This document shows, piece after piece, positions 752-34,284 of a stretch of DNA of 34,795 nt. Position 1 is the stretch's first letter. Each line of letters opens with the position of its first letter. Origin of the DNA: an uncultured bacterium (GTDB lineage: Bacteria; Verrucomicrobiota; Kiritimatiellia; CAIVKH01); the NCBI GenBank assembly GCA_937958885.1, contig CALGMT010000023.1, positions 1 to 34,795 of the forward strand, read 5' to 3'. Position numbers and translations under genes: made by a program. Below the pieces are notes generated by a model. The model saw nothing but the letters and a program-made list of their open reading frames with translations, made no database searches and was not told the DNA's origin.

Positions 752-818
752 CCCATTCGAAACGCATCTGCTCGCCATTTGAGAAAAGAGTGTGACGTGT
801 CAGAGGGAAGATCGCGTC

Positions 819-2375
819 ATGAAAAAGAGCATAGGTATGCTGCTTCTGTTCGCATCGACGTTGGCATGCGGCGACGTTCCAAGCCTGATTCATTATCAAG
901 GACGTCTCCTGCTCGGCACCAATCTGGTCAGCGGTGCCGTCGGGCTGTCGCTTCGGCTCTACAGCGCGCCGTCAGGCGGCACATTGCTCTATGAAGATTC
1001 CAACACGGTGACCGTGGTCGATGGTCTTTACGCCACGTGGATCGGCGACAACACGGTGGCGGGCTCGCTCGGCGACGCGCTGACGAACGCGCAGGTGTGG
1101 CTGGAGGTGGGGGTCAACGGAACGCCGCTCTCGCCGCGCGAGCGCGTCGCGGCGGTGGCCTATGCGCTGATCGCAGACGGCGTCCGAACCGGCGGCATTA
1201 CATCCGCGATGATTGCGGCCGGCGCGGTGCAACCGGTGCACCTCGCGACGGGAACCTTTGTGCGGGTGTCCGGCGATGTGATGAGTGGTGCGCTCACCAA
1301 CCAAGAGCATATCGCGGCGCCGCGGTTTGTGAACGTGATGAACAATGCAGCGGGCTACCGATCGGTTGCCCTTGGCGGCGAACTGAACACGATTGGGCCA
1401 TCCGCAAACTACGCCGCGATCGGCGGCGGCAGAGGGAATCAGGCCCTCGGCTTCGGTTCGGTCGTTGCCGGCGGATTCAGCAATATTGCCAGCGGGATAT
1501 CATCGTTCGTGGGCGGCGGCGGCAACAACGGTTTTTGGACATATTTACCAAACATGGCCACAGGAGCATCCTCGGTCGTGGCCGGCGGTCTCGGGAATAC
1601 CGCTGGCGGATGGGCATCAACAGTGCCGGGCGGTTGCCTCAATGAGGCAATGGGTCTCTCGTCTTTGGCTGCGGGATACCGCGGTAAGGCGTTGCATGAA
1701 GGCGCGTTCGTTTGGGCAGATTATCGGGGCTCAGATTTTGCATCCACCCGTTCCAACCAATTTTGCGTGCGCGCCGGCGGAGGTGTTTGGATAGACACCG
1801 GATGGAACAGCCCTGGGATCCTGCTCAATGCCGCCGACCGCGCGCTGATCACGCGCGGCTTCGATCCCTTTACCAGCGGGGTCCACCAAACCGCCGGGCG
1901 ATGGGGCCTCTTCATGGAACCCAGCGCGCTCGTTCTCGGCATGCCGGCGCTGGGCGGCAAAACGATCAACATGGTCAAATACAACCCCGACAGCACCTAC
2001 ACCACGCTGATGACCCTCGATCAAAGCGGCAACATGACCATCGCCGGCACGTATTCGCCACCCAGCGACCGAAACCTCAAGCAAGACTTTGAAAACGTGA
2101 ACGGCGCGGAAGTTCTGGCCAAAATCGCCGAATTGCCGATTCAGACCTGGCGATACGCGCATGAAGAAAACGGGCCCCGCCACATCGGCCCCACCGCGCA
2201 GGACTTTCACGCCGCCTTCGGGCTCGGCGCCGACGACCGACACATCGCCACGGTGGACGCCGATGGCGTGGCGCTGGCAGCGATTCAGGAACTGGCGCGC
2301 CAGAACGCCGCTCTACGAGCTGAAGTCGAGGCCCTCAAGCGGCAAGTCGGAAGCCCTGGCGAATCAAGACCTTGA
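819..2375 (+). CDS. Exported protein with YadA-head-like repeats and S74 chaperone domain
   Basis: 518 residues from ATG 819, chosen because AGAGGGAAG lies about 9 nt upstream and a signal peptide follows (MKKSIGMLLLFASTLACG). An upstream in-frame GTG at 792 is less likely. Residues about 25-125 form an N-terminal domain. Residues 180-290 carry Gly-rich S-x-V-x-GG-x-x-N-x-A-x-G units (SVVAGGFSNIASG, SVVAGGLGNTAGG) like the left-handed beta-roll of trimeric YadA/Hep-Hag heads. Residues 412-490 resemble the peptidase S74 intramolecular chaperone of phage tailspikes: S416-D-R-N-L-K421 has the Ser/Lys spacing of the self-cleaving dyad. A short coiled coil ends the protein (490-510). This suggests a trimeric surface fibre that matures by autocleavage. 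No phage genes surround it. The substrate or receptor is unknown. Confidence 0.8.
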   Translation: MKKSIGMLLLFASTLACGDVPSLIHYQGRLLLGTNLVSGAVGLSLRLYSAPSGGTLLYEDSNTVTVVDGLYATWIGDNTVAGSLGDALTNAQVWLEVGVNGTPLSPRERVAAVAYALIADGVRTGGITSAMIAAGAVQPVHLATGTFVRVSGDVMSGALTNQEHIAAPRFVNVMNNAAGYRSVALGGELNTIGPSANYAAIGGGRGNQALGFGSVVAGGFSNIASGISSFVGGGGNNGFWTYLPNMATGASSVVAGGLGNTAGGWASTVPGGCLNEAMGLSSLAAGYRGKALHEGAFVWADYRGSDFASTRSNQFCVRAGGGVWIDTGWNSPGILLNAADRALITRGFDPFTSGVHQTAGRWGLFMEPSALVLGMPALGGKTINMVKYNPDSTYTTLMTLDQSGNMTIAGTYSPPSDRNLKQDFENVNGAEVLAKIAELPIQTWRYAHEENGPRHIGPTAQDFHAAFGLGADDRHIATVDADGVALAAIQELARQNAALRAEVEALKRQVGSPGESRP

Positions 2376-2384
2376 TGCCTTGCG

Positions 2385-2822
2385 CTAATCGACGACAAAG
2401 GCGAGTGTCGCGCGGTAGCCTTCATCGCGGAGGGTCCATTCCAGCGTGGCGCGCCAGAGGCCTGGCGCCAAATCGTGCGTCGAATAGCGGATGGGTGATC
2501 CTGGAAGAGGTTCGATTGATTCGTTCCGGTCCATCTTCGCATCGGAAGGGCGATACAGCGCAAGCTGGATATCGGACGCGCCCTCCGGCAATTCAATCAT
2601 CAGCGCGCGCTCGGCCGACAAATGGCGCAGTGCATTCATGCCCGCCGCGCGCGCGGTGCGTTCCATCACCCCGGTGTGCAGGACGTCCTGCTCATAATAG
2701 TCGCGGACGACGAGATCCTGCCGATGGCGCAGCGACCAGACGACGAAACTCGTCATCGCGACGGCGAACAGGGCGATGAAGATGCCGATGCCCCACGGCC
2801 ACGGATTGATGCGAGCGCTCAT
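2385..2822 (-). CDS. ccoH: CcoH/FixH-like cbb3 oxidase assembly protein
   Basis: 145 residues. The ATG at 2822 overlaps the ccoG stop by 4 nt (ATGA), which fixes the start and implies translational coupling. The N-terminus PWPWGIGIFIALFAVAMTSFVVW is followed by one membrane span (about 9-30) and the conserved DYYEQD stretch (41-46). A periplasmic beta-rich domain follows, containing LALYRPSD and ending in GLWRATLEW, typical of FixH/CcoH. In characterised bacteria this subunit helps assemble and stabilise the cbb3 oxidase and associates with CcoI and the mature complex. It is the last gene of the minus-strand oxidase cluster. Its stop lies only 9 bp from the end of the convergent S74-protein gene. 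Nothing appears truncated. Confidence 0.88.
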   Translation of the reverse strand: MSARINPWPWGIGIFIALFAVAMTSFVVWSLRHRQDLVVRDYYEQDVLHTGVMERTARAAGMNALRHLSAERALMIELPEGASDIQLALYRPSDAKMDRNESIEPLPGSPIRYSTHDLAPGLWRATLEWTLRDEGYRATLAFVVD

Positions 2823-4246
2823 GTCGTCTGGGGTCCGATGAGATTGACCTTCAATGTGCGGATGCGTTGCCCATCCTGATACACACCGACCGCTATCGGG
2901 AGATTGCCGTGCTTGAACAGCATGCGTGGCGCGGCGAGGACCACAGCCGTTTGGGTGATCCCGTCGCGCGCGGCGCGGATTTCGGGTTCGGAGGTGCGGA
3001 TATGCGCGCCGTCCGGCCACTCGATGCTCAGCGCAAGCGGGATGTCCCGCATGGTTTTGTTTGCAATCTTCACCATATAGATATTGCCGATTTCATTGTC
3101 GGGTAATTCCGTGAACAGCGCGCCAGGCGCGCGGAGCAGTTGGGTCTCCACATTGCTGCGCGTCGCCAGAATAACCACCAACACGCCGCTTAGAAGGAGC
3201 AGGATTGTCGAATAAATCACCATCCGCGCCGTGACGCGAAATCGCAGGCCTTCGCTGATATTGCGCTGGGATGCGTAGCGTATCAGGCCGCGCGGAAATG
3301 AAAGGCGGTCCATGACGCCGTCGCACGCGTCGATGCACGCGGTGCAATTGACGCATTCCATCTGCGTGCCGTTCCGGATGTCGATGCCTGTGGGGCAGAC
3401 CTCGACGCAGAGCCGACAGTTGATGCAGTCGCCGATGCCGGCCGCCTTGCGCGCTTCATAAGGTTGATCTTTGCGGAATCGCTGTTGCGGCTCCCCGCGC
3501 CGATGGTCGTAGGCAACGACGATCGAATCATTGTCGAGGAGGACGGACTGGAATCGTCCATACGGGCAGATAAACGTGCACGCCTGTTCGCGAAAGCGCG
3601 CAAAAATGCCATAAAACAGCAGGGAAAAGCCGATCATCGCGGCGAGGCCCTGCAGATGCCGCATCGGGTTGTCGGTGACCAGCGCCCACCATGCGTCGAT
3701 GCCGATAATGTAGGTGAGCAGCCAATTTCCGATCAGAAAAGAAAGACCGAAGAAGATCGCGTGTTTCGCGCCCTTTTTGATCCATTTCGCGCGCGTCCAA
3801 GGCGCTGCATCCAGCGCGCGCTGTTCGTGCGCATCGCCTTCCAACCCGTATTCGATTTTGCGGAAGACCATCTCCATAAAAATGGTTTGAGGGCAGAGCC
3901 ATCCGCACCACACGCGGCCGAAAACCGCGGTGAACAGCACGATCATCACAAAAATTGTGAGCAGCAGCAGCGCGAAGATATAGAGGTCTTGCGGCCAGAA
4001 CACCTGCCCGAACAACGCGAATTTTCGCGCGGGAATGTTCATCATCAGCAACGGCGCGCCGTTGATTTTGATGAACGGCCCGACGGCGAGAATCGCGAGC
4101 AGGATCCACGCGACCCACGAGCGCCAGCGGTAGAATCGGCCCTGCGGCTGGCGCGGATAGATCCAGATGCGGTCCCCCGTCTTCCGATCGGCCGTCGGAA
4201 TGGCGTCGCGAAAATCAGAGGCGAGCGGTGAAGCGTCTTTGTTCAT
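2819..4246 (-). CDS. ccoG: CcoG/FixG-like membrane ferredoxin, cbb3 copper maturation factor
   Basis: 475 residues from ATG 4246. The frame stays open upstream to 4795, but that extension is antiparallel to nothing conserved and overlaps ccoP, so I reject it. There are membrane spans near 43-60, 87-110, 162-182, 200-216 and 340-362. Motifs: GRVWCGWLCPQ (110-120), ACTFICPYGRFQS (222-234), and two [4Fe-4S] sets C274-x2-C277-x2-C280-x3-C284 and C298-x2-C301-x2-C304-x3-C308. An Ig-like periplasmic C-terminal domain spans about 370-475. The family is reported to reduce Cu(II) to Cu(I) for oxidase assembly. The gene follows ccoP after a 71-bp gap, the only non-overlapping junction of the cluster, and overlaps ccoH by 4 nt. 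The Shine-Dalgarno is weak. Confidence 0.93.
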   Translation of the reverse strand: MNKDASPLASDFRDAIPTADRKTGDRIWIYPRQPQGRFYRWRSWVAWILLAILAVGPFIKINGAPLLMMNIPARKFALFGQVFWPQDLYIFALLLLTIFVMIVLFTAVFGRVWCGWLCPQTIFMEMVFRKIEYGLEGDAHEQRALDAAPWTRAKWIKKGAKHAIFFGLSFLIGNWLLTYIIGIDAWWALVTDNPMRHLQGLAAMIGFSLLFYGIFARFREQACTFICPYGRFQSVLLDNDSIVVAYDHRRGEPQQRFRKDQPYEARKAAGIGDCINCRLCVEVCPTGIDIRNGTQMECVNCTACIDACDGVMDRLSFPRGLIRYASQRNISEGLRFRVTARMVIYSTILLLLSGVLVVILATRSNVETQLLRAPGALFTELPDNEIGNIYMVKIANKTMRDIPLALSIEWPDGAHIRTSEPEIRAARDGITQTAVVLAAPRMLFKHGNLPIAVGVYQDGQRIRTLKVNLIGPQTT

Positions 4247-4317
4247 GAGCGGTGAGCGAATCGAGACTCCGACACGATGAGCGCGGCTTGGAATGACCCT
4301 TCCGCCCCGCCGACTTG

Positions 4318-4872
4318 TCAGCCATCTGCCTTGACGCCTTCCGGCGCCTTTGCCTGCGCGGGAGTCGTGCCGCGGAGGCTGTCGACAAAGCTGGCGACGG
4401 CGTGAATATCGGCGGGCCGCATTTGCGACTTCCACGAAATCATGCCCTTGGCGGGGACGCCCTCCCGGATGACGTGCATCTTGTCGGCAAAGGTCGGTCC
4501 GTGGATGAAGTAATCGTCGGTGAGATTGGGGCCGATCAAGCCGCCGCCGTCGGGGGCGTGGCAGACGGCGCAATTCGACATGTAGAGCGCCCGCCCGCGC
4601 GCGAGTACTTGAGGATCGGTGGACGGCGTGTCGAATTGAGGCGCCGCGGCGACGGCTGACGGGCCGGTGTCGCCGCGCGCGCGCGCCATTTCGCGCTCGT
4701 ACTGCGCGGCCTGCGAATCGCCGATTTTGAGGACATCGAAGTAAAGCAAGTAAAACACCGAAAAGACAATTGTGATATTGAAAAGCCAAACCCACCAGCG
4801 CGGCAGGCGGTTATCGAGTTCCTGAATGCCGTCCACCTCGTGGCCGGCCATCGGGTTTTCGTCGTTACTCAT
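4318..4872 (-). CDS. ccoP: cbb3 oxidase subunit III, short mono-haem CcoP
   Basis: 184 residues. The start ATG 4872 overlaps the ccoQ stop by 8 nt and is preceded by a strong Shine-Dalgarno (AAGGAGA about 8 nt upstream, inside ccoQ). The N-terminal region contains VDGIQELDNRLPRWW (13-27), the typical CcoP signature, then one membrane span (about 28-46) and a linker. A single cytochrome c domain follows, with C101-A-V-C104-H105 and Met candidates at 144 and 151 (KGMISWKSQM). Classical proteobacterial CcoP is about 300 residues with two CxxCH haem sites; here only one exists and the stop is clean. The product should still pass electrons to the CcoO haem and the catalytic subunit. This looks like a lineage variant and not a truncation. 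Confidence 0.93.
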   Translation of the reverse strand: MSNDENPMAGHEVDGIQELDNRLPRWWVWLFNITIVFSVFYLLYFDVLKIGDSQAAQYEREMARARGDTGPSAVAAAPQFDTPSTDPQVLARGRALYMSNCAVCHAPDGGGLIGPNLTDDYFIHGPTFADKMHVIREGVPAKGMISWKSQMRPADIHAVASFVDSLRGTTPAQAKAPEGVKADG

Positions 4873-5056
4873 GGCGGTCGTCTCCTTCGGAAGGTTCTCC
4901 GGACTCCAGCGGCAAACGGCTCGCGTGGTCCACGTGCGCGCGGCTCATCGTGAAGGCCCAGACGGCAAAGCCGATGAAGACCGCCGCGAACAGCACGAGC
5001 GCGATGATCGGGAAAACGGCAATGCCGCCGATGTGTTCGAGGATGCCGCGGATCAC
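4865..5056 (-). CDS. ccoQ: cbb3 oxidase small subunit CcoQ
   Basis: 63 residues. The start is GTG 5056, which overlaps the ccoNO stop by 4 nt (GTGA); no ATG fits. One hydrophobic span (about residues 12-36) is followed by a short acidic/polar tail. This is the layout of CcoQ/FixQ, a non-catalytic subunit that stabilises the oxidase. Sequence conservation in this family is low, so the call rests on size, topology and its position between ccoNO and ccoP. The 3' end overlaps ccoP and contains the ccoP ribosome-binding site, so translation of the two is probably coupled. Confidence 0.82.
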   Translation of the reverse strand: MIRGILEHIGGIAVFPIIALVLFAAVFIGFAVWAFTMSRAHVDHASRLPLESGEPSEGDDRHE

Positions 5057-7188
5057 GGCGCGCCTCCCGCGGCGAGGTCGGTGCGGACGTCGACGCCGAG
5101 CCGCTGCAAATAGGCGATGAGCGCGATGATCTCGCGGTCCGGTTCGACGGGCACGCCGTTCTGTTTCAGGTCGTCGGAAATTTCACGGGCCTGCTGCTTG
5201 AGATCGGCCATCGCCCGATTTTCATAGCCCGGCGGGTAGGGGACGCCGAGGCGGCGCATGAGCTTGATCTTCGCGGCAGTGGTTCGCGTGTCGAGTTTAT
5301 CCTTCAGCAACCACGGATAGGGCGGCATCACGGAGTTCTCCGACGTCGAGCGCGGATCCTGCATGTGGCGCGCGTGCCACGCGTTGGGATATTTGCGGCC
5401 GACGCGGTGCAGGTCGGGTCCGGTGCGCTTCGATCCCCAAAGAAACGGATGGTCGTACACGAATTCGCCCGCCTTCGAATACTCGCCGTAGCGTTCCGTT
5501 TCCGAGCGGAACGGGCGGACGAGCTGCGAGTGGCAGCTTACGCAACCCTCGCGGATGTAGATGTCGCGGCCATGCAGTTCGAGCGGCGTGTAGGGGCGTA
5601 CCGCCGCGATGGTCGGGACATTGGTGCGGATCAGAAACGTCGGCACGGCCTCGACGATCCCGCCGATGAGGATCGCGATCAGCGCGAGCACGGTGAACCA
5701 AAACGGTTTCCGCTCCAGCCATCGATGGCGATAGGGGTGCTCGTCGTGGGCCTTCACCAGCGGCGGCATCGGAGCGACCCGCGCCTCCACGTCAGCCGCG
5801 AACGCGCCCTGCTTCGCGGTGCGATACAGATTGTAGGCCATCAACAGCGCGCCGACGAGATAGAGGCTGCCGCCGATCGCACGCAGGACGTACATCGGAA
5901 TGAGCTGCAGAAGCGTTTCCAAAAAGTTCGGATATTGCAGGAAGCCGTCGGGCGTAAATTGCTTCCACATCAGGCCCTGCGTGACGCCGGTCCAGTAGAT
6001 CGGGACGACGTAAAACATCATGCCGAGCAGGCCGATCCAGAAGTGCCAGGTCGCCAGCTTCACCGACCAAAGCCTCGTGTTGTACATGTTCGGAAACAGC
6101 CAGTAGAGCATGCCGAACGTGAGAAATCCGTTCCATCCGAGCGCGCCGGTGTGCACATGCGCGATGGTCCAGTCGGTGAAATGCGAGAGCGCGTTGACGC
6201 TCTTGATCGAAAGGGTGGGCCCTTCCAGCGTCGCCATGCCGTAGGCCGTGACGGCGACAACCATGAATTTTAATACAGGATCCTGCCGCACCTTGTCCCA
6301 TGCGCCGCGCAGCGTCAGCAGACCGTTGAGCATCCCGCCCCACGACGGCGCGATCAGCATCAGCGAGAACACCATGCCGAGCGATTGCGCCCAATCCGGC
6401 AGCGCCGAGTAGAGCAGGTGATGCGGCCCGGCCCAGATGTAGATAAAAATCAGCGCCCAGAAATGGATGATCGAGAGGCGGTAGGAGAACACCGGGCGGC
6501 CCGACGCCTTCGGGATGAAGTAGTACATGAGGCCGAGGTAGGGCGTCGTCAGGAAGAACGCGACCGCGTTGTGGCCGTACCACCATTGCACGAGCGCGTC
6601 TTGCACGCCCGCATAGATCGAGTAGCTCTTCAGCCAGCTCAGCGGAAGCTCGAACGAATTGACGATGTGCAGGACCGCGACGGTGACCACGGTGGAGATG
6701 TAGAACCAGATCGCGACGTACATGTGCCGCTCGCGCCGCCGGGCGATCGTCCCGAACAAATTGATCGCGAAGACGACCCAGACCAGCGTGATCGCGATGT
6801 CGATCGGCCACTCGAGCTCCGCATATTCCTTGCTCGTGGTGAAGCCGAGCGGCAGCGTGACGGCCGCTGCGACGATGATGAGCTGCCAGCCCCAAAAGTG
6901 GATCCAGCTCAACGCGTCGCTGAACATCCGCGCCTTGCAGAGGCGCTGCAGCGAGTAATACACGCCCGCGAAGATTCCATTGCCCACGAACGCAAAGATC
7001 ACCGCGTTCGTATGCAGCGGGCGCAGGCGGCCGAATGTCGTCCACGGCAGGCCGAGATTCGCCGCCGGGATGAAGATCTGCAGCGCGATAATCAGACCGA
7101 CCAGCATGCCCACCACGCCCCATAAAACGGTGACGAAGGAAAAGGCGCGGACGATCCGGTTGTCGTAGCGGATGGTTTCCATATTCAT
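5053..7188 (-). CDS. ccoNO: Fused CcoN-CcoO catalytic subunit of cbb3 cytochrome c oxidase
   Basis: 711 residues from ATG 7188, which overlaps the ccoS stop (ATGA). Residues 1-460 are CcoN, a haem-copper oxidase with about 12 membrane spans. A histidine for low-spin haem is at 59 (RPLHTN). Cu-site histidines are at 206 (WYGHN) and 256/257 (AGPHHL). The haem-binding AHVHTGALGWN has histidines at 344 and 346. After a linker, a further span near 495-515 leads into CcoO, a mono-haem cytochrome c with C549-V-S-C552-H553 and a Met candidate in SVMPPYP (M621). Separate ccoN and ccoO genes are the textbook arrangement. Here one uninterrupted frame joins them, a fusion known in some non-proteobacterial lineages. 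It reduces O2 to water with proton pumping at the cytoplasmic membrane. Confidence 0.97.
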   Translation of the reverse strand: MNMETIRYDNRIVRAFSFVTVLWGVVGMLVGLIIALQIFIPAANLGLPWTTFGRLRPLHTNAVIFAFVGNGIFAGVYYSLQRLCKARMFSDALSWIHFWGWQLIIVAAAVTLPLGFTTSKEYAELEWPIDIAITLVWVVFAINLFGTIARRRERHMYVAIWFYISTVVTVAVLHIVNSFELPLSWLKSYSIYAGVQDALVQWWYGHNAVAFFLTTPYLGLMYYFIPKASGRPVFSYRLSIIHFWALIFIYIWAGPHHLLYSALPDWAQSLGMVFSLMLIAPSWGGMLNGLLTLRGAWDKVRQDPVLKFMVVAVTAYGMATLEGPTLSIKSVNALSHFTDWTIAHVHTGALGWNGFLTFGMLYWLFPNMYNTRLWSVKLATWHFWIGLLGMMFYVVPIYWTGVTQGLMWKQFTPDGFLQYPNFLETLLQLIPMYVLRAIGGSLYLVGALLMAYNLYRTAKQGAFAADVEARVAPMPPLVKAHDEHPYRHRWLERKPFWFTVLALIAILIGGIVEAVPTFLIRTNVPTIAAVRPYTPLELHGRDIYIREGCVSCHSQLVRPFRSETERYGEYSKAGEFVYDHPFLWGSKRTGPDLHRVGRKYPNAWHARHMQDPRSTSENSVMPPYPWLLKDKLDTRTTAAKIKLMRRLGVPYPPGYENRAMADLKQQAREISDDLKQNGVPVEPDREIIALIAYLQRLGVDVRTDLAAGGAP

Positions 7189-7361
7189 GGCGTTTTTTTC
7201 CGGGTTGGTTCAGGAGTGGTCGATTCGTCATCGGACAATACGCGCATGGGCGGAGTGCCGGTGTCGTCGAATTGGCCGGAGCGGACCGACCACAGAAAAC
7301 CGATCAAAAATACCGTTGCGACGCCGAGGCTGGCCATCATCAATATAAATAGTACGCTCAT
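7185..7361 (-). CDS. ccoS: CcoS cbb3 oxidase maturation protein
   Basis: 58 residues. The ATG at 7361 overlaps the ccoI stop by 4 nt, and the stop overlaps the ccoNO start by 4 nt, so the gene is locked between two coupled junctions. One N-terminal membrane span (MSVLFILMMASLGVATVFLI) is followed by FLWSVRSGQFDDTGTPPMR, where the W-x-V-x-x-GQFDD-x-x-x-P-x-x-R pattern is characteristic of CcoS. In known systems CcoS is needed to obtain an oxidase containing its haem and copper centres. The polar tail after residue 42 is rich in S/T/E/P/K and probably disordered. Confidence 0.92.
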   Translation of the reverse strand: MSVLFILMMASLGVATVFLIGFLWSVRSGQFDDTGTPPMRVLSDDESTTPEPTRKKTP

Positions 7362-9823
7362 CGCTCGATGGCCTCCCCGGGGTCGGACGCGCCCCAGCCC
7401 GTGCGCGCGGCGGCCCACCGCGCGCCGAGCAGCGCAAACGAAATGATCGTGAATGAACTCAACGGCATCAAAATCGCCGAGACGAGCGGCGAGAGACGTC
7501 CGGTCGCCGCAAAGGTCAGGCCCGTCGCGTTGTAGCAGAGGGAGATGACGAAGCTGGCGTAAACCACGCGGAGCATCGCGCGGGAAAAGCGCAGCAAATC
7601 GGGCAGTTGCTTGAGACGATCCGCTTCGAGAATCACATCGCTGGCCGGGGAGAAAGTCGACGCGCGCTCGGTCACCGCGATGCCGACATCCGCCTGCCGG
7701 AGCGCGCCCGCGTCGTTCAGTCCATCGCCGATCATCGCGATGCGTCGGCCCTTCGCCTGCCAGGAGCGGATGGCCTCCAATTTGTCGGCGGGCGATTGGC
7801 GGAAGCGCAGCTCGGCATCGGCGCCGAGCCACTCTGCATAGCGCGTCCGCTCGGCATCGCGGTCGCCGGACAGCAGCGCGAGCCGGAACCGCGCCGCCAG
7901 CGTGCGGGCCAGGGCCGCGACATCCGTGCGCGGACCGGCCACCGCAGAGAATCGGCCTCGATAGACGCCATTGATCGCGAGCGCGGCCGCGCCCGACGGC
8001 GGCGGGGGCGCGCCCGTAATGCCATTCTGCGCGAGCCAGGCGGAGGAGCCGATGACGACCGCGCGGCCGTTTGCGCAGCCGCGCACGCCGAGGCCTTCCA
8101 CTTCTTCAAAGTCGATCACCGGAGAGGTCGGCGGTTTCGCCCCCGCAATCGCGCGGCTGATGGGGTGGGTGGACTGGGCGGCCACGGCGCGCACGGCGGC
8201 TTCATCTGCGTCGCTCAACGGGTTTCCGTCGAATTGCGCAAACGGGCGGGCGTGCGTCAGCGTGCCGGTCTTGTCGAAGACGATGGTATCCGTGCGGGCG
8301 AGCGCCTCGAGCGTGTCGGTATTCTTGACGAAGACGCGGCGGCGGGCCAGCAACCGGAGGGCGGCGCCGAGGGCAAAGGGCGCGGAGAGCGCGAGCGCGC
8401 AGGGGCAGGCGACGATCAGGATCGAAGCGAACACGCGCGGCGCCTCCGCCGGATGATAACCCCACCACCAGACCCCTGCGGCGGCGGCAAACAGCAGCAC
8501 CCCGACCGTGAACCGGCGTCCGGCGCGATTGGTCATGTTGTTCAAACTGGTGTCGCGGGATTTGCGGAACGCCTCGTGGTCCCAGAGCGAGGCGAGATAG
8601 CTGCGCGAAGTCTCTTTGACGATTTCCAGCTCGATCGCGGAGCCGAGTTGACGCGCGCCTGCGTACACGTGATCGCCCGGCGCGCGCGCGACCGGCTCCG
8701 CCTCGCCGGTGACGAACGCGTAGTCCAGGCGCGCCTCGCCCGCGAGGAGGCGCGCGTCCGCCGGGACCAGCTCGCCGTTGCGCACGCGGATGCGATCGCC
8801 GATGCGCAGTTCCGTCAGCGGCGTGTCGCGCACCGCGCCGTTTTCAATTCGCTGCGCGGACAGCGGGAAGTAGGCGCGATAGTCCCGGTCGAACGAGAGC
8901 CAGTCGTAACTCTTCTGCTGAAACCACCGGCCGCAGAGCAGAAAGAACACGAGCCCGGCGAAGGAGTCGAAATAGCCCTCGCTCGCGCCGGTGGCCACGT
9001 CAAACGCGCTCTGCACGAAGAGCGCCGCCAGGCCGATCGCGATGGGAAACTCGATGGTGATCATCCGCCGCCGCAGGCCCAGCCATGCGGCGCGCCAGTA
9101 GGGCGAGGCGCTGAAGAGCAGGACCGGCAGCGACAGTCCGAGGCTCAACCAGCCGAAAAACGGGCGGAAGATTTCGCCCTCCCGGAGGCCGAGGTAGGAG
9201 GGAATGCTCAGCAGCATGATGTTGCCGAACGCGAACCCTGCGACGCCGATCCGCAGCCACAGGCCGCGCTGCCCCGGCGGCCCGCGCTCCTCGCGCTCGC
9301 GCAGCGCGCCCAGATTGATATCCGGCTCGTAGCCCAGCGAGGCCAGCAGATGCGCGAGCCGGCTGAACGGCAACAGCGTGTGGTCGAACGAAACCGTCAG
9401 TTCGCGCCGCGGGAAATTCACGCGCGAGGCGCCGATCGCCGGCTCTAGCCGGAATAGATTTTCCAGCAGCCACACGCACGCCAGACAGTGCATGGACGGG
9501 ACGCGCAAGGTGACCCGCGTTACCCGCTCGTCGGCATAATCGGCGAGTTGGGCGCGCAAATTGCCCGCGTCGAGGAATCCGAATCGATCCGGCGGCGGCG
9601 CCTCGCCGATCCGGACGCCCGGTTGTTTTTCGAGCGCATAGAAACGCTCCAAGCCCGAGTCGTTCAGTATCTGGAACACCGTTCGGCACCCTGTGCAGCA
9701 GAAATGCAGCGCATCGGCCTCGATGGAGGCATCGGGGCAGGGAGCGCCGCAATGGGCGCAGGCGAGCCGAGCGCCCGGTGTCGGTTCGGATGTCGACCGT
9801 GTACTGATGGCCGTTTGGCTCAT
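7358..9823 (-). CDS. ccoI: CcoI-type P1B copper-transporting ATPase for cbb3 assembly
   Basis: 821 residues from ATG 9823. The frame stays open to 9940, but that would overlap the divergent rrf2 start, so I use 9823. The N-terminus has a Cys-rich region (C22-A-H-C25; FCCTGC 41-46), then an HMA-like domain with M111-H-C113-L-A-C116. Membrane spans begin near 188. The actuator TGEAEP is at 372-377, the copper channel motif CPC at 473-475, the phosphorylation loop D517-KTGT, HP at 553-554, and the hinge GDGLND at 699-704. CcoI exports copper across the membrane for insertion into the oxidase. Here it is the first gene of the cluster, whereas ccoI and ccoS usually come last in ccoNOQP-ccoGHIS loci. 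It overlaps ccoS by 4 nt. Confidence 0.95.
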   Translation of the reverse strand: MSQTAISTRSTSEPTPGARLACAHCGAPCPDASIEADALHFCCTGCRTVFQILNDSGLERFYALEKQPGVRIGEAPPPDRFGFLDAGNLRAQLADYADERVTRVTLRVPSMHCLACVWLLENLFRLEPAIGASRVNFPRRELTVSFDHTLLPFSRLAHLLASLGYEPDINLGALREREERGPPGQRGLWLRIGVAGFAFGNIMLLSIPSYLGLREGEIFRPFFGWLSLGLSLPVLLFSASPYWRAAWLGLRRRMITIEFPIAIGLAALFVQSAFDVATGASEGYFDSFAGLVFFLLCGRWFQQKSYDWLSFDRDYRAYFPLSAQRIENGAVRDTPLTELRIGDRIRVRNGELVPADARLLAGEARLDYAFVTGEAEPVARAPGDHVYAGARQLGSAIELEIVKETSRSYLASLWDHEAFRKSRDTSLNNMTNRAGRRFTVGVLLFAAAAGVWWWGYHPAEAPRVFASILIVACPCALALSAPFALGAALRLLARRRVFVKNTDTLEALARTDTIVFDKTGTLTHARPFAQFDGNPLSDADEAAVRAVAAQSTHPISRAIAGAKPPTSPVIDFEEVEGLGVRGCANGRAVVIGSSAWLAQNGITGAPPPPSGAAALAINGVYRGRFSAVAGPRTDVAALARTLAARFRLALLSGDRDAERTRYAEWLGADAELRFRQSPADKLEAIRSWQAKGRRIAMIGDGLNDAGALRQADVGIAVTERASTFSPASDVILEADRLKQLPDLLRFSRAMLRVVYASFVISLCYNATGLTFAATGRLSPLVSAILMPLSSFTIISFALLGARWAAARTGWGASDPGEAIER

Positions 9824-9926
9824 AAATGCCGCGCACACCCTAGCGACTGCGAGGCGGCGCCCGCAATGCAAAAATACAACAAATATAATCTTGAATATCC
9901 GAATTGCAGCCGCGAGACTGTCGCTC
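9824..9926. promoter_or_regulatory. Divergent promoter region between ccoI and the Rrf2 gene
   Basis: This 103-bp stretch separates two divergent transcription units and has a marked AT-rich core at about 9866-9898 in an otherwise GC-rich window. On the plus strand TATAAT occurs at 9884-9889, about 37 nt before the rrf2 start. The -35 region is poor, which would suit an activated or repressed promoter. On the minus strand TATATT lies over the same core. I found no clear FNR box (TTGAT-N4-ATCAA). An imperfect ATAT-N10-ATAT pairing overlaps the plus-strand -10, which is a possible Rrf2 operator but weak evidence. Confidence 0.45.
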
Positions 9927-10397
9927 ATGATCGTGACCAAAACAACCGAGTTGGGATTGCAATGCGTGCTCTACCTCGCCCAGCGGCGAAGGGGCGACTT
10001 GGTCAATCCGCTTGAAATCGCGCAACAATTCGGAGAATCGGCGACGTACATTGCCAAGGTGTTGCGCCAATTGGCGCATAGCGGCATTGTGCGCTCGCAC
10101 CGCGGTGCATCGGGCGGGTTCGAGCTCGCGCGCGACCCGGCGTCAATCACGTTGCTGACCGTCGTCGAAGCCTGCCAGGGCGCCGTGAAGGGGAATTATT
10201 GCCAGGAAACGCCTCCCTCCCGCGTGCCGTCGATGTGCGGCTGGCATCAAGCCATGTGGGAGCTCAAGGAGTCCTGCCGGAGCGTGCTGAGCCGCTGGAC
10301 GATCGCGCGCATCATGGAAAAACCCTACGCCAAGACGCCCACACCCGCGTGTCGGTATCGCCGCGTCCACATTCAAGTCGAGCCGGAGCTCGTGTGA
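9927..10397 (+). CDS. Rrf2-family transcriptional regulator, candidate Fe-S sensor
   Basis: 156 residues from ATG 9927. It has a winged helix typical of Rrf2 proteins: TKTTELGLQCVLYLAQ, then IAQQFGESATYIAKVLRQLAHSGIV (helix-turn-helix about 31-55), then the wing SHRGASGGFELAR. Three downstream cysteines, C92, C104 and C117, plus E8 are the likely ligands for an Fe-S cluster. The spacing C-x11-C-x12-C differs from IscR and NsrR (C-x5-C-x5-C), so the stimulus cannot be assigned from sequence. The gene is divergent from ccoI and overlaps the radical SAM gene by 4 nt (GTGA). It therefore probably controls its own operon and possibly the oxidase cluster in response to oxygen, NO or iron. Confidence 0.88.
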   Translation: MIVTKTTELGLQCVLYLAQRRRGDLVNPLEIAQQFGESATYIAKVLRQLAHSGIVRSHRGASGGFELARDPASITLLTVVEACQGAVKGNYCQETPPSRVPSMCGWHQAMWELKESCRSVLSRWTIARIMEKPYAKTPTPACRYRRVHIQVEPELV

Positions 10398-27468: not shown

Positions 27469-29610
27469 ATGAATAAGGTCTTGTTTAATTGGCTGTTGTT
27501 TAGCGCGTGGGCGGGGGCTGCTTTCGCATCTCTGCCGTCGGGCGGCTCGGAATCAACCGAGGCCGCGCCCGCGTTTCGGATGGAAGTCCTCGCGACCGGA
27601 CTGACGGATCCCGACGGCCTGGCCATCCATCCTCAAACCGGCGAGATCTACGTGAGCGAAGAAACGGCAGGCCGGATATCGGTGCTGCGCAATGGGCGCG
27701 CTGAGGTTGTTGTGGGTCCCGATATTCGTGTGGAGGGAACCCTGCCGGATTGGATGATCACCCGCGACAGGCCGGATTCCTACTGGCGGCTGACCCGCCT
27801 GCGAAATCCGGAAGGTATCTGCTTCATGGCCGACGGCACGCTGCTCGTGGCGGAGGATACGCCGGGCGGGCGGTTGCTCGCGTTCTCGCCCGACGCGGCC
27901 GGCCGCTACGGACCGGCCGCAGTCGTGCCGATCCCGCATCTCGGCGATCCCTACGCGTGGGAAAGTGTCAGCGCGACGGATGACGGCCGCATCTACCTCG
28001 CCGGCGCATCGCACGAAGGCGGCGCAGGCCTTGGCGCGAGCTGCGTGATCGCCCGCGACCCCGAGGGAACGTGGTGGATGGTGGATTACAGTCCGCTCGC
28101 CTCTTTCAGCGCCGTCGCAACCGCCCCGCATGAACTCGTCCTTGCGGTGGGCGACGAGTCGGTCGGCGGCGTGACGTGGTGGGATGTCGAACAGCAGCGC
28201 GAAATCGTCACCCTCACCCGCGATCTCGCCTCGATTGAGGGGCTTGCCTTTATGCCGGACGGATCGCTCGTTGTGGCCCAGGAAAACACGCCGACCGGCG
28301 GGCGACTGGTGCGGCTGGACCCCGCCTCGGGCCGGCGCGACCTGTTGGCCGAGGGTCTCGGCACGCTCGAATCGCTGGTATGGGATTCGCGCGGGCATCG
28401 ACTGCTGGCAGTCGAGGATTCCACGGGGCGCATTCTCGTGTTCACGCCGTCCGAGACGATCGGCGCGCAGCATCTTTCACTGTTGGACCTCGCGAAGCGC
28501 AGCGGGAACGCCAAACGCGGCGTGCCGCCGCGCGCGGCGCCCGATTTCCTCAAGCAGTTTTTCAAGGCGGCCGGCGTCCAGATTGTCGACCGATCCGGCG
28601 CATCGGATAAAGACCCACCCCCAACCGCCGCCGCCCCGTCTGCCGTGGCGGCCGGCATTCCCGCGCTCACGCTGGAGGAACTCGGCAGGCGGATTCCGCT
28701 CGTCGCCGGGCGGCTCGCGGTGGACCCCATCGAGGGCGTCGCGGATCCGGTTGTCGAGATCAGCTTCGTGAATCTCTTTCCGAACCAGCTCCTGCGGAAC
28801 GAAAATCGTCCGATGCCCGGCCTCTGCTTCTACGCCGCGCGGCACCGCAGCGGGCGCGTCGAGCGCAGCCGGGTGATCGAGGGCATGCAGGCGCGTCGCG
28901 CGTCGCTCGACGGCGCGCGCGAGTGGATCGGTCACCATGCGCTGCTGATGCTGCCGCTGACGACGTGCACCGCTGTGGAGAGCGACAACGGCGTCACCGT
29001 CAGCATGACCTTCCTCGGCTTGGAGCGGTTCGACGATTCGTTCCTGACGCTGCACTACGGCCGCCACAATTACGCCTATTTTTCGACCGCCGGAGAGGAA
29101 CTGAAGGTCGCGCGCGCCTCCTTCACGGAAACGAAACAGAACGGAGTAGAGATGGTCAACTTTGCGATGGCCGGCGTGCGCCCGCGCCGCGCGGAAGATG
29201 CCGTCTGGCTGCGCTTGAGCACGCGGCCCAACTGGAGTTTGCTCTCGCCCGCAGTGGAACCGTGGATTCCGCGCTGGTCGCTCTCGAATCTGCCCGAACT
29301 GGTCGCGCGCATGCGCCGGTTCAACCAAGACGTGATCGACGGCCTGCTGGCGGACGACGCGCCGCCGGCTCGGGAGAAAATGGCCGGACGCGACGCGGGC
29401 GATGTGAAGGACGAGAAGACCGCACCGGACATCACCGGCTCGCCCGATGTGAAGGATCCGGGTCGCGCGGACGTTCGGCCGATCGAGGTCGAACCGCCGC
29501 TCGCCCGGATTCAGTTTGCGCCACCGCCGCTGAGCGAGGAGGAGCGCCTGCTGACGAACCTGATCCTGAGCCGGGTCGTACAGGCGTGGAACAACGGCGC
29601 CGCGCCGTAA
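27469..29610 (+). CDS. Exported NHL/SMP-30-like beta-propeller protein with unknown C-terminal domain
   Basis: 713 residues from ATG 27469. A signal peptide (about 1-21, ending AGAAFAS) implies export. Residues about 36-330 contain repeating blade motifs such as DPDGLAIHPQTGEIYVSEE, NPEGICFMADGTLLVAED, IEGLAFMPDGSLVVAQE and LESLVWDSRGHRLLAVED, the pattern of NHL/SMP-30-type six-bladed propellers. A linker rich in D, P and A (about 360-400) separates a second domain (about 400-640), with VEISFVNLFPNQLLRNENRPMPGLCFYAARH and LTLHYGRHNYAYF, that I do not recognise. The tail 640-690 is acidic and low-complexity. No catalytic residues are evident. The stop is 4 bp from the end of the convergent glyS gene. 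Confidence 0.85.
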   Translation: MNKVLFNWLLFSAWAGAAFASLPSGGSESTEAAPAFRMEVLATGLTDPDGLAIHPQTGEIYVSEETAGRISVLRNGRAEVVVGPDIRVEGTLPDWMITRDRPDSYWRLTRLRNPEGICFMADGTLLVAEDTPGGRLLAFSPDAAGRYGPAAVVPIPHLGDPYAWESVSATDDGRIYLAGASHEGGAGLGASCVIARDPEGTWWMVDYSPLASFSAVATAPHELVLAVGDESVGGVTWWDVEQQREIVTLTRDLASIEGLAFMPDGSLVVAQENTPTGGRLVRLDPASGRRDLLAEGLGTLESLVWDSRGHRLLAVEDSTGRILVFTPSETIGAQHLSLLDLAKRSGNAKRGVPPRAAPDFLKQFFKAAGVQIVDRSGASDKDPPPTAAAPSAVAAGIPALTLEELGRRIPLVAGRLAVDPIEGVADPVVEISFVNLFPNQLLRNENRPMPGLCFYAARHRSGRVERSRVIEGMQARRASLDGAREWIGHHALLMLPLTTCTAVESDNGVTVSMTFLGLERFDDSFLTLHYGRHNYAYFSTAGEELKVARASFTETKQNGVEMVNFAMAGVRPRRAEDAVWLRLSTRPNWSLLSPAVEPWIPRWSLSNLPELVARMRRFNQDVIDGLLADDAPPAREKMAGRDAGDVKDEKTAPDITGSPDVKDPGRADVRPIEVEPPLARIQFAPPPLSEEERLLTNLILSRVVQAWNNGAAP

Positions 29611-31314: not shown

Positions 31315-34119
31315 TCAGCGCAGGCGGTATGCGCCGACGCGCGAACCGATGAGCAGGAAATCCACGGCGCCATCGTCGTCGATATCGGTCACGATCACGC
31401 GATCGCCGAATTCAATGCGCTGCATCGCGCGGCGTTCACCATCGGCGTTGTACAGCACAAGCGTGGTGTAATCCGTCACCGCGAGCAGATCCTCGCGCTC
31501 GCCGAAGGGGATCGAGTTGATAGCAGTAATGGAGCTCCTCTGCTTGGTTTGGAATTGCATATTTCCCTCCGTGTCATACATGGCGATCTCGGCCCCGAGA
31601 TGCTGGTTGATGACGCGGCCACCCACCTCCCTGCGCTCGATCAGATTGAGTCCGCGCACCAAGACCGGATCGCCGCCCGCACGGCGAAGCGCCGCCCAGT
31701 GAATGACTTCGTGCTTGGTGTCCGATTGAGGCGGCGCGGGTTTTTTGAACGAAGCCATCACCGTTCCGGTGCGCGGATCCAAGGCAAGGATGGCGTCCTC
31801 GCGTTCGATGGCGATCAACGCAGGCCGCACGCGGACTTCCAGTATTTCGTTCATGGATCTGATCTGTTGCGTGCGACGGGCTTGATTGGTTTCCCAAATG
31901 GGTTCAAAAAAACGAGGGTTCATGCGCGTGATCTGCGCGGGAGCCTCGGATTCTTCTTCTATCTCGTCTGGAGGCGCGGCGCTGGGGAGCGACTCGCCGG
32001 CGAGCATCTTTTCAGTCTGCTCGCGCAGCGTGCGCTTCAGGTCGGAGGAGAATCCGACATGGCGGCCCTGGACGATGCCGTTGCGATCGATGAGGACGAT
32101 GCAGGGGATGCCGCGCACGGCGTACGCTTTATTGATCCGGTCCCGGTCAATGCCGACGGGGTACGTCAATTTTTCGCGCGCCGCCATTTTCTGAACGGCG
32201 TCTTCATTCTCGGGATCGTCCGTGCTGATGCCGACGACCACGACGTCTTGCGTGCGGACATCGTCCCAAAACTTCTGCACTTCAGGCAGGGCCTTCACGC
32301 ACGGGCCGCACCAGGTGGCCCAGAAATCGAGGATCACAACCTTGCCGGTATGGGCGGAAAGCGTAAAGGTCTCGCCGTCGAGCAGTTTCACGCTGAAATC
32401 CGGCGCGGGTTTGCCGGACAGTTCAAAGCGGCCGTCGCTGCCGGGCTGTTGCCAGAGCTCGCGCAGACTCTCGACGCGCTTCCAGTTTTCCGGCGGCGCG
32501 AAGAGGAAGGTCTCCGCCGGGATGGGCTCGTCGCGCTGGGTCGCGGTGCGCTCCGTGCGAAGGCGCATCCTTGTGATTTTCTCGTTTGTCTCACCGGCGT
32601 TCGAAACGAACGTCATATGGATCGTGTGTTCTCGGATGAGTCCGGTTTCCGGGTCGATTGAGGTCCGCACGATATTGGTACTATTTCCGGAGATGATCTC
32701 GCCGGTCAGCAGCCAGTCGCCTTTGGCGTCCCCGTTGTCCTGCTCGGGCAAACGCCAGCGAAACTGACGCGCCTGTGCTTTGAGCGCTTGGATCGGTTCT
32801 GCTGAAATGAGCGCGTAAAGCTCGGGCGTTAGCATGCTGCGAGCCACATGGTTTAATTCGCGATTAAGGTCGAGGAGGGTTTGCCGATCCATTTGGACAT
32901 AGCGCCGCCGCCGCTCCAGCGCGAGGGTGGCGTTTGTCCGGTCCAGCACGAGGAGGCCCGAGGGCGCATCGACGCGAAGGCGGGGGCCGTCTCGATCATA
33001 CTGAATCGAGGTCGAATGCGAGGGAGCATCCATCTGTTCGTTCCACTCGTGATATTGCTCCACTTCGATGCCAAGGGTGCGGTGCGCCGCGAGGCGATCG
33101 GCCCATTGTGCGATAAAGGCTTCCATCTCCGGCGCAAGCGGAGCGGGGGGCGGTGCGCTGGTTGTACCGCGCTGAGCGGCGGCCTTTTCCTCTTCCAGCG
33201 CGGCGGCGAGTTCCTTGCGCGGCGCGCCGGCGAGTTGTTCGGGAGTGAATCGCTGTATGCGGTCGGTGGTCGGATAGTTGCCGCCGGTGACGTACACCGC
33301 GCGTCCGTCGAATGCGACGGCGGTGTGGCGGACGGGATGATACGGCAAATCAATGATCGCCCATTCCGCGGTCGTAAAATCGTATGCCGCAACGCGGCCG
33401 AGCGCGGGGTAGTGGCCGAAGGAATACAGCGCATCATTCACGACGGCGACGCGGTGCGCGCTCAACTCGAACGGCAGATCGGGCAGTTTCATCCAGGCGT
33501 CCGCTATCGGGTCGTATACCTCGAAGGCCTCGACGGCTTTCTTCCCATTGTATCCGCCGACGGCGTAGATACGGCCCTTGTAAATCGCGATGGCGGTCTC
33601 GCGCGCGGTCGGCATGTCCGCGCCGCGCGACCACGTGTCCGCCGCCGAATCGTAAATGAAAACGGTGGACGCGCGCTTGTCGTTCGGGCCTACGCCGCCG
33701 ATCGCGTAAAGGCGTCCCTCGTGGAAGACAACGCCGGGGTTGGCGCGCGGCTCGGGCAGCGGCGCGAGTGTTTTCCACTCGCCTGAGGAGGGCGTCCAGC
33801 GCTCCACGAGAGAAAGCTTGGCGCGGTCGATCATGCCGGTTGAACCGCCGACCACATAAATATGTGTGCCGTCGGAGGCGGCTTGGAGCCAGGAGCGCGG
33901 CATGGAAAGCCGCGCGATTTCGCGCGACTCGCCGCGTTCAAGATCGACGGCCTCCACGCTGTCCAATATCCCTCTTGTTCCATTCCCGCCGAATACGTAG
34001 AGGGCGTTTCCAACGGATGCCACAGCATGGCCGAACCGCGCTTCGACGAGGGTGGGATCACTTTCGGCGCGGGCAAAGGCCGCGCAAGACAATACGAGGA
34101 TCAGATAGAGGCGTTGCAT
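31315..34119 (-). CDS. Exported Kelch / DUF2092-like / TlpA-thioredoxin fusion protein
   Basis: 934 residues from ATG 34119, chosen for GGGAGAG about 7 nt upstream and a signal peptide ([18 protein letters not shown]). Residues 25-290 hold about six Kelch repeats ([38 protein letters not shown]). Residues 330-550 resemble the LolA-like DUF2092 fold of exported proteins. Residues 568-705 are a TlpA/ResA-type thioredoxin with W603-C604-G-P-C607, [14 protein letters not shown] and cis-Pro672 in GIPCIVLID. The C-terminal 190 residues resemble a further propeller fragment, ending in a calcium-like [14 protein letters not shown] (912-925). This suggests a periplasmic thiol reductase or resistance factor on a large binding scaffold. 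The partner is unknown. It is divergent from a beta-barrel gene. Confidence 0.88.
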
Positions 34120-34284
34120 GTGGACTCTCCCGGCGCGGGGTTGATGTGTGGCAGCGTAGAGCGCATGTGGAGCATAGAATAATCCCGGAGGCTTACAAGC
34201 CCGAGCTTGACGGCGCGAATCCCCACACACATCCTGATGACGATCAAAGGCGCTAACCGCGCTCGATCACATGGAGGACATGCA
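34120..34284. promoter_or_regulatory. Divergent region between the Kelch-thioredoxin and beta-barrel genes
   Basis: 165 bp. On the minus strand TTGTAA (34198-34193) and TATGCT (34176-34171) are 16 bp apart and could drive the Kelch fusion gene. On the plus strand TTGACG at 34207-34212 is a good -35, but no convincing -10 follows at the right distance. The barrel gene has a strong ribosome-binding site, GGAGGA at 34273-34278. Confidence 0.35.

Follow-up and report, generated by a model that had tools for sequence, protein, structure and literature searches.

A single reading frame on the reverse strand of the window, by which we mean the whole analysed stretch of 34,795 nt, encodes a 934-aa protein in which a Kelch propeller is joined to a LolA/DUF2092-like domain of divergent sequence, a thioredoxin domain of TlpA/ResA type and a C-terminal beta domain (Ct). 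Relatives possess subsets of these modules, so that the novelty lies in their arrangement and not in the kinds of parts; we consider it on balance probable that the product is a client-specific thiol-disulfide exchanger of the envelope, belonging to the TlpA/ResA branch, soluble and periplasmic, in which the extra modules dock a putative client. Computation established which modules are present, that the active site is intact, that modules are shuffled among relatives, and a rule regarding a third cysteine; as to the client, a secreted or outer-membrane protein appears likelier than an apocytochrome c. The parts of the gene are located as follows.

31315..34119, minus strand: whole coding sequence, 934 aa plus stop (stop-free translation)
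34125..34130, minus strand: Shine-Dalgarno-like GGAGAG, 5 nt ahead of the ATG
34066..34119, minus strand: signal-like N-terminus, residues 1-18, AxA and then ES (sequence inspection)
33211..34053, minus strand: Kelch module, residues 23-303, complete six-bladed propeller (Pfam, AlphaFold, Foldseek)
33130..33210, minus strand: Ala/Pro/Glu-rich linker, residues 304-330, GC 0.75
32425..33129, minus strand: LolA/DUF2092-like domain, residues 331-565, divergent (relatives, profile comparison, AlphaFold)
32002..32424, minus strand: TlpA/ResA-type thioredoxin domain, residues 566-706 (Pfam AhpC-TSA/Redoxin, PDB ResA and related structures, pLDDT mostly >90)
32299..32313, minus strand: WCGPC active site, residues 603-607 (sequence)
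32101..32109, minus strand: Ile-cisPro-Cys, residues 671-673, with the third cysteine (alignment)
31924..32001, minus strand: linker, residues 707-732, with low pLDDT inside the stretch (AlphaFold)
31318..31923, minus strand: Ct, residues 733-934, beta domain of 16 strands that weakly resembles PQQ/BamB propellers and belongs to no Pfam family (AlphaFold, Foldseek)

The frame is uninterrupted, as the sequence-only reading had claimed, with 31315-34119 (-) translated free of stops. GC and GC3 are even across its modules and the domain borders lie in frame; a chimeric join is therefore unlikely. Judging from inspection of the N-terminus, the protein is presumably periplasmic. Besides a single cysteine within the signal-like N-terminus, only residues 604, 607 and 673 are cysteines. 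Pfam applied to the full protein gave nothing reliable at residues 330-565 or 735-934, and the AlphaFold model of the full chain (20 sequences) reached a mean pLDDT of 78.8 with a pTM of 0.45, because of which the modules are believable but their mutual arrangement is not. Among the four modules initially described as readable, Kelch, TlpA and, by way of relatives, the LolA-like one were confirmed, whereas the C-terminal “repeat” was not. The accompanying idea of an exported-looking multi-domain oxidoreductase of TlpA type mounted on a scaffold is supported.

The thioredoxin domain combines a fold scoring above Pfam cut-offs (AhpC-TSA E 7e-25; AhpC-TSA and Redoxin 87.8 and 81.5 bits against 26 and 26.6) with WCxxC and cis-proline P672, that is, with the broad features of the TlpA/ResA type, and the WCGPC motif earlier noted at residues 603-607 is indeed intact, both Cys 604 and Cys 607 being present. 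Cysteine directly follows the cis-proline in 10 of 10 TlpA domains of the Ct-linked lineage and in none of the 16 others in the alignment; in 15 TlpA domains devoid of Ct this position is occupied by Q, T, H or R, and in the separate N-terminal thioredoxin of one Ct protein (G082) by S. This third cysteine is diagnostic of the Ct-linked TlpA lineage, and since the Ct label clusters strongly on the TlpA tree, it may represent one inherited change rather than many. The proposed exchanger would employ redox chemistry of the usual kind and be unusual in how it is targeted. C604 would attack a client disulfide (or donate one) and C607 would resolve the intermediate, cis P672 would shape the binding groove, while C673 probably tunes client binding or supplies a second thiol. 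The Kelch propeller, the hydrophobic-pocket domain of LolA/DUF2092 kind and Ct would dock one or few envelope clients, and the TlpA domain would be re-reduced by the CcdA-like membrane protein present in the same genome. No TlpA-type WCxxC domain other than that of the 934-aa protein was found in this genome, which is 88% complete; the further thioredoxin-type matches inspected comprise classical thioredoxins, a BCP-type peroxiredoxin and a redoxin that lacks WCxxC.

The same inventory bears on another possible role, that of a reductant for cytochrome c maturation (as ResA or CcmG), acting on apocytochrome CXXCH, for example that of cbb3 subunits, in a CcsA-type system. This role keeps some weight because CcsA- and CcdA-type proteins are encoded and another TlpA/ResA-type domain was not seen in the genome; moreover, the thioredoxin domain has ResA structures among its best matches in the PDB, and a cbb3 cluster resides on the same contig:

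5056-7188, minus strand: 711-aa frame with CcoN and CcoO domains (COX1 and FixO)
2822-4795 and 7361-9940, minus strand: its neighbours, a CcoG-like ferredoxin protein and a CcoI-like P-type ATPase

A common operon with cbb3 is ruled out, as the cco genes lie at 2.8-9.9 kb, more than 21 kb away and separated by unrelated genes, and linkage to either cco or ccs genes is absent. At the position of ResA E80, three residues after CXXC, the protein has Ala610, and none of the 24 aligned domains linked to LolA or Kelch has Glu there, whereas it is present in all characterised dedicated CcmGs and required in ResA and StoA (PMC5909903). The CcmG fingerprint GVxGxPETF is replaced by AVRGIPCIV, although ResA itself is also devoid of this fingerprint; NCBIfam scores fall far under their cut-offs (ResA 90.4 of 170, DsbE 38.7 of 123 and TlpA 51.7 of 230 bits), and a CIPC thioredoxin adjoining ccdA could serve instead. 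Because the E80-position Glu and the CcmG fingerprint are missing and the cco genes are distant, the maturation of haem proteins for cbb3 offered by the sequence-only reading is weakened and looks rather improbable. Other genes of the window include 27469-29610 (+), coding for an exported-looking protein of 713 aa with a propeller part (NHL/SMP-30, ScyE-like) and an unassigned C-terminal half, and 792-2375 (+), a 527-aa frame ending with a Peptidase_S74 endosialidase-type chaperone domain.

Assignment of the segment between Kelch and TlpA depends on relatives and profiles. Neither LolA nor DUF2092 of Pfam matches the 934-aa protein; at the same position relatives P0007 and P0008 match DUF2092 with 5.7e-30 and 5.8e-37, relative P0003 exceeds the curated cut-off (8.7e-6), and profile-profile comparison by hhalign against the DUF2092-positive set gives E 2.7e-5 (probability 74%) for the segment alone and E 6e-26 for the segment together with its nearest relatives. 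The AlphaFold model displays the helix-plus-sheet order with an incomplete sheet, solved LolA proteins are weak matches, and the RPN and DGT signatures, which relatives conserve, are degenerate in this protein. TlpA-DUF2092 joins, earlier judged plausible for related bacteria, are indeed widespread, LolA-TlpA being the common core among relatives. Given this core, the hydrophobic pocket of the LolA fold known for DUF2092 (PMC4520260) and the lack of LolA Pfam matches elsewhere in the genome, one might think, as the sequence-only reading did of envelope lipoproteins, of lipoprotein or lipid handling: the LolA-like domain would carry a lipidated peptide or an acyl chain, while the thioredoxin would keep the lipidated cysteine or client reduced. 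Such a function is nonetheless unlikely in our estimation: the signature positions are degenerate in this very protein, two genomes (G029 and G077) have dropped the LolA-like domain and kept Kelch-TlpA-Ct, and conserved neighbours pointing to lipoprotein transport were not found.

The Kelch module is recognized by Kelch_1 with E 1.6e-42 (143 bits against a cut-off of 20.1), and Foldseek aligns it with complete solved six-blade propellers of KLHL, KEAP1 and SAKe6, TM-scores by target being mostly 0.7-0.8. Structure prediction had been suggested as a check on whether the N- and C-terminal repeats close a single propeller; they do not, as Kelch is already complete and Ct folds alone. The Kelch lineage is sharply delimited: seven members reach 439-506 bits against the family profile, and every Kelch domain above 430 bits resides within a thioredoxin-bearing frame. 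At 310 bits there is a protein of G083 (L085:6449-8323 (-)), of the same Kelch lineage, with an N-terminal thioredoxin-like part that has lost CXXC (FLSSRAPGHPG), while matches of 260 bits or less are seen without thioredoxin or in short frames. Below 310 bits are also two Kelch lipoprotein-like chains of G088 and G092, and elsewhere in the phylum such matches fall in frames of Kelch-only size. The two chains of G088 and G092, separate Kelch proteins whose N-terminus is lipobox-like, are encoded at L086:5928-7586 (+) in G092 and L087:4082-5959 (+) in G088, genomes that also have a LolA-TlpA-Ct protein elsewhere. One scan of genome contigs returned only a distant Kelch protein.

Ct was sought in 346 genomes from the class and in a phylum sample of 388, and turned up only within the same class; 14 Ct proteins, including one more obtained via the Kelch search, were read. 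The full order Kelch-LolA-TlpA-Ct was seen only in the genome of the 934-aa protein. Its subsets are represented by Kelch-TlpA-Ct in G029 and G077, both from family f21, LolA-TlpA-Ct in seven genomes (G078, G041, G304, G305, G088, G091 and G092) and LolA-Ct in G017, and a further arrangement, Trx-TPR-Kelch-Ct with the TPR tail present or absent, in G089, G082 and G081. A thioredoxin fold accompanies Ct in 13 of the 14 proteins and in all six that combine Kelch with Ct, the latter drawing on two distinct lineages of thioredoxin, placed at two positions. LolA-TlpA without Ct occurs in many genomes of the class, including the same-genus G001, where it is followed by a long tail (L027:6193-9636 (-); ~700 residues with TPR matches and a further, unassigned C-terminal part). 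In family f26 long exported-looking proteins of Trx-TPR-Kelch-(Ct)-TPR type were noticed (L083, L084, L071 and L072), with Ct absent between Kelch and TPR in G090 (L083). Gene neighbours conserved across families were not found among the loci compared, and the literature search on Kelch combined with TlpA/DUF2092 yielded nothing relevant.

Since the full four-module order was found once, and the same-genus G001 and G002 possess neither Ct nor the Kelch lineage of the 934-aa protein, the domains might have fused by chance in one species, in which case the function would be that of a LolA-TlpA protein with nothing added. We hold this to be highly improbable: Kelch, a thioredoxin fold and Ct are joined in one chain in three arrangements in three families, which chance fusion does not predict. 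Independent domains with no architecture conserved in other genomes had been named as the outcome that would speak against the sequence-only reading; the domains are independent, yet sub-architectures recur. The order of module gain is left undecided by both the TlpA and the Ct trees. Support of 96/97 unites as a clade the Kelch-bearing Ct domains other than that of the 934-aa protein, whose inclusion is not rejected (p-AU 0.32).

Modelled alone (C-terminal 205 residues), Ct gives pLDDT 89.1, pTM 0.85 and 16 strands. The top Foldseek match is BamB (E 3.6e-4), and the best solved structures, BamB and other propellers, stand at E about 4e-4 with TM-scores <0.5; PQQ_2 is weakly touched by 6 of 14 members, the best at 1.7e-4. 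With 12.3 of 27.6 bits the domain of the 934-aa protein scores below the Pfam cut-off, and its 16 strands fall short of the eight blades of PQQ/BamB-type propellers. A calcium-like terminal repeat, as initially proposed, is not borne out. Neither internal sequence repeat nor blade-to-blade similarity was detected in Ct, conserved repeated DxDxDG of FG-GAP/VCBS/RTX type and Pfam repeat families are missing there, and the single acidic segment has a counterpart only in G017, being absent from the other 12 members (n=14); a calcium-binding repeat was rejected accordingly. Because the resemblance to BamB and PQQ_2 is weak, TM-scores stay <0.5 and a repeat is absent, the model is read as a divergent, perhaps PQQ-like, beta domain. 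A bolder version, doubtful to us, takes Ct as a hitherto undescribed family of small, beta-propeller-like domains, whose 16 strands might make up four blades. It unites Kelch, the LolA-like domain, Ct and three-cysteine TlpA into a lineage-specific envelope toolkit for redox delivery, reassembled in varied orders and with C673 participating in catalysis.

If the client-specific exchanger is the right reading, the protein exemplifies a plain periplasmic thioredoxin aimed at its clients via bolted-on binding domains, and cysteine-trap mutants could fish the clients of LolA-TlpA proteins. Ct would then define a family of C-terminal domains that has no entry in Pfam, and Cys after the cis-proline would become a simple marker for a TlpA lineage lacking the residue needed in cytochrome c maturation.

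Compared to known systems, the 934-aa protein shares six Kelch blades with KLHL/KEAP1-type propellers and bacterial NanM/YjhT, but unlike them looks exported and is fused to a redox domain, and its score falls below the NanM cut-off. With the TlpA/ResA/CcmG family it has in common the AhpC-TSA/Redoxin fold, WCxxC and cis-proline, as well as PDB matches to ResA and TlpA, while Cys after cis-Pro and the four-module context set it apart. As in the DUF2092 (PF09865)-TlpA fusions of the same class, its LolA-like domain directly precedes TlpA, although Kelch additionally precedes this pair and a beta domain follows it, and the LolA signature residues are degenerate. Ct bears weak sequence and fold resemblance to BamB/PQQ-type propellers, differing in about half the size, 16 strands, TM-scores <0.5 and scores below Pfam cut-offs. 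The Kelch-TlpA-Ct proteins of G029 and G077 have Kelch of the same lineage (43% identity) with the IQRF..LA.APR tail, TlpA with IPC and Ct, and differ in that a charged low-complexity linker replaces the LolA-like domain.
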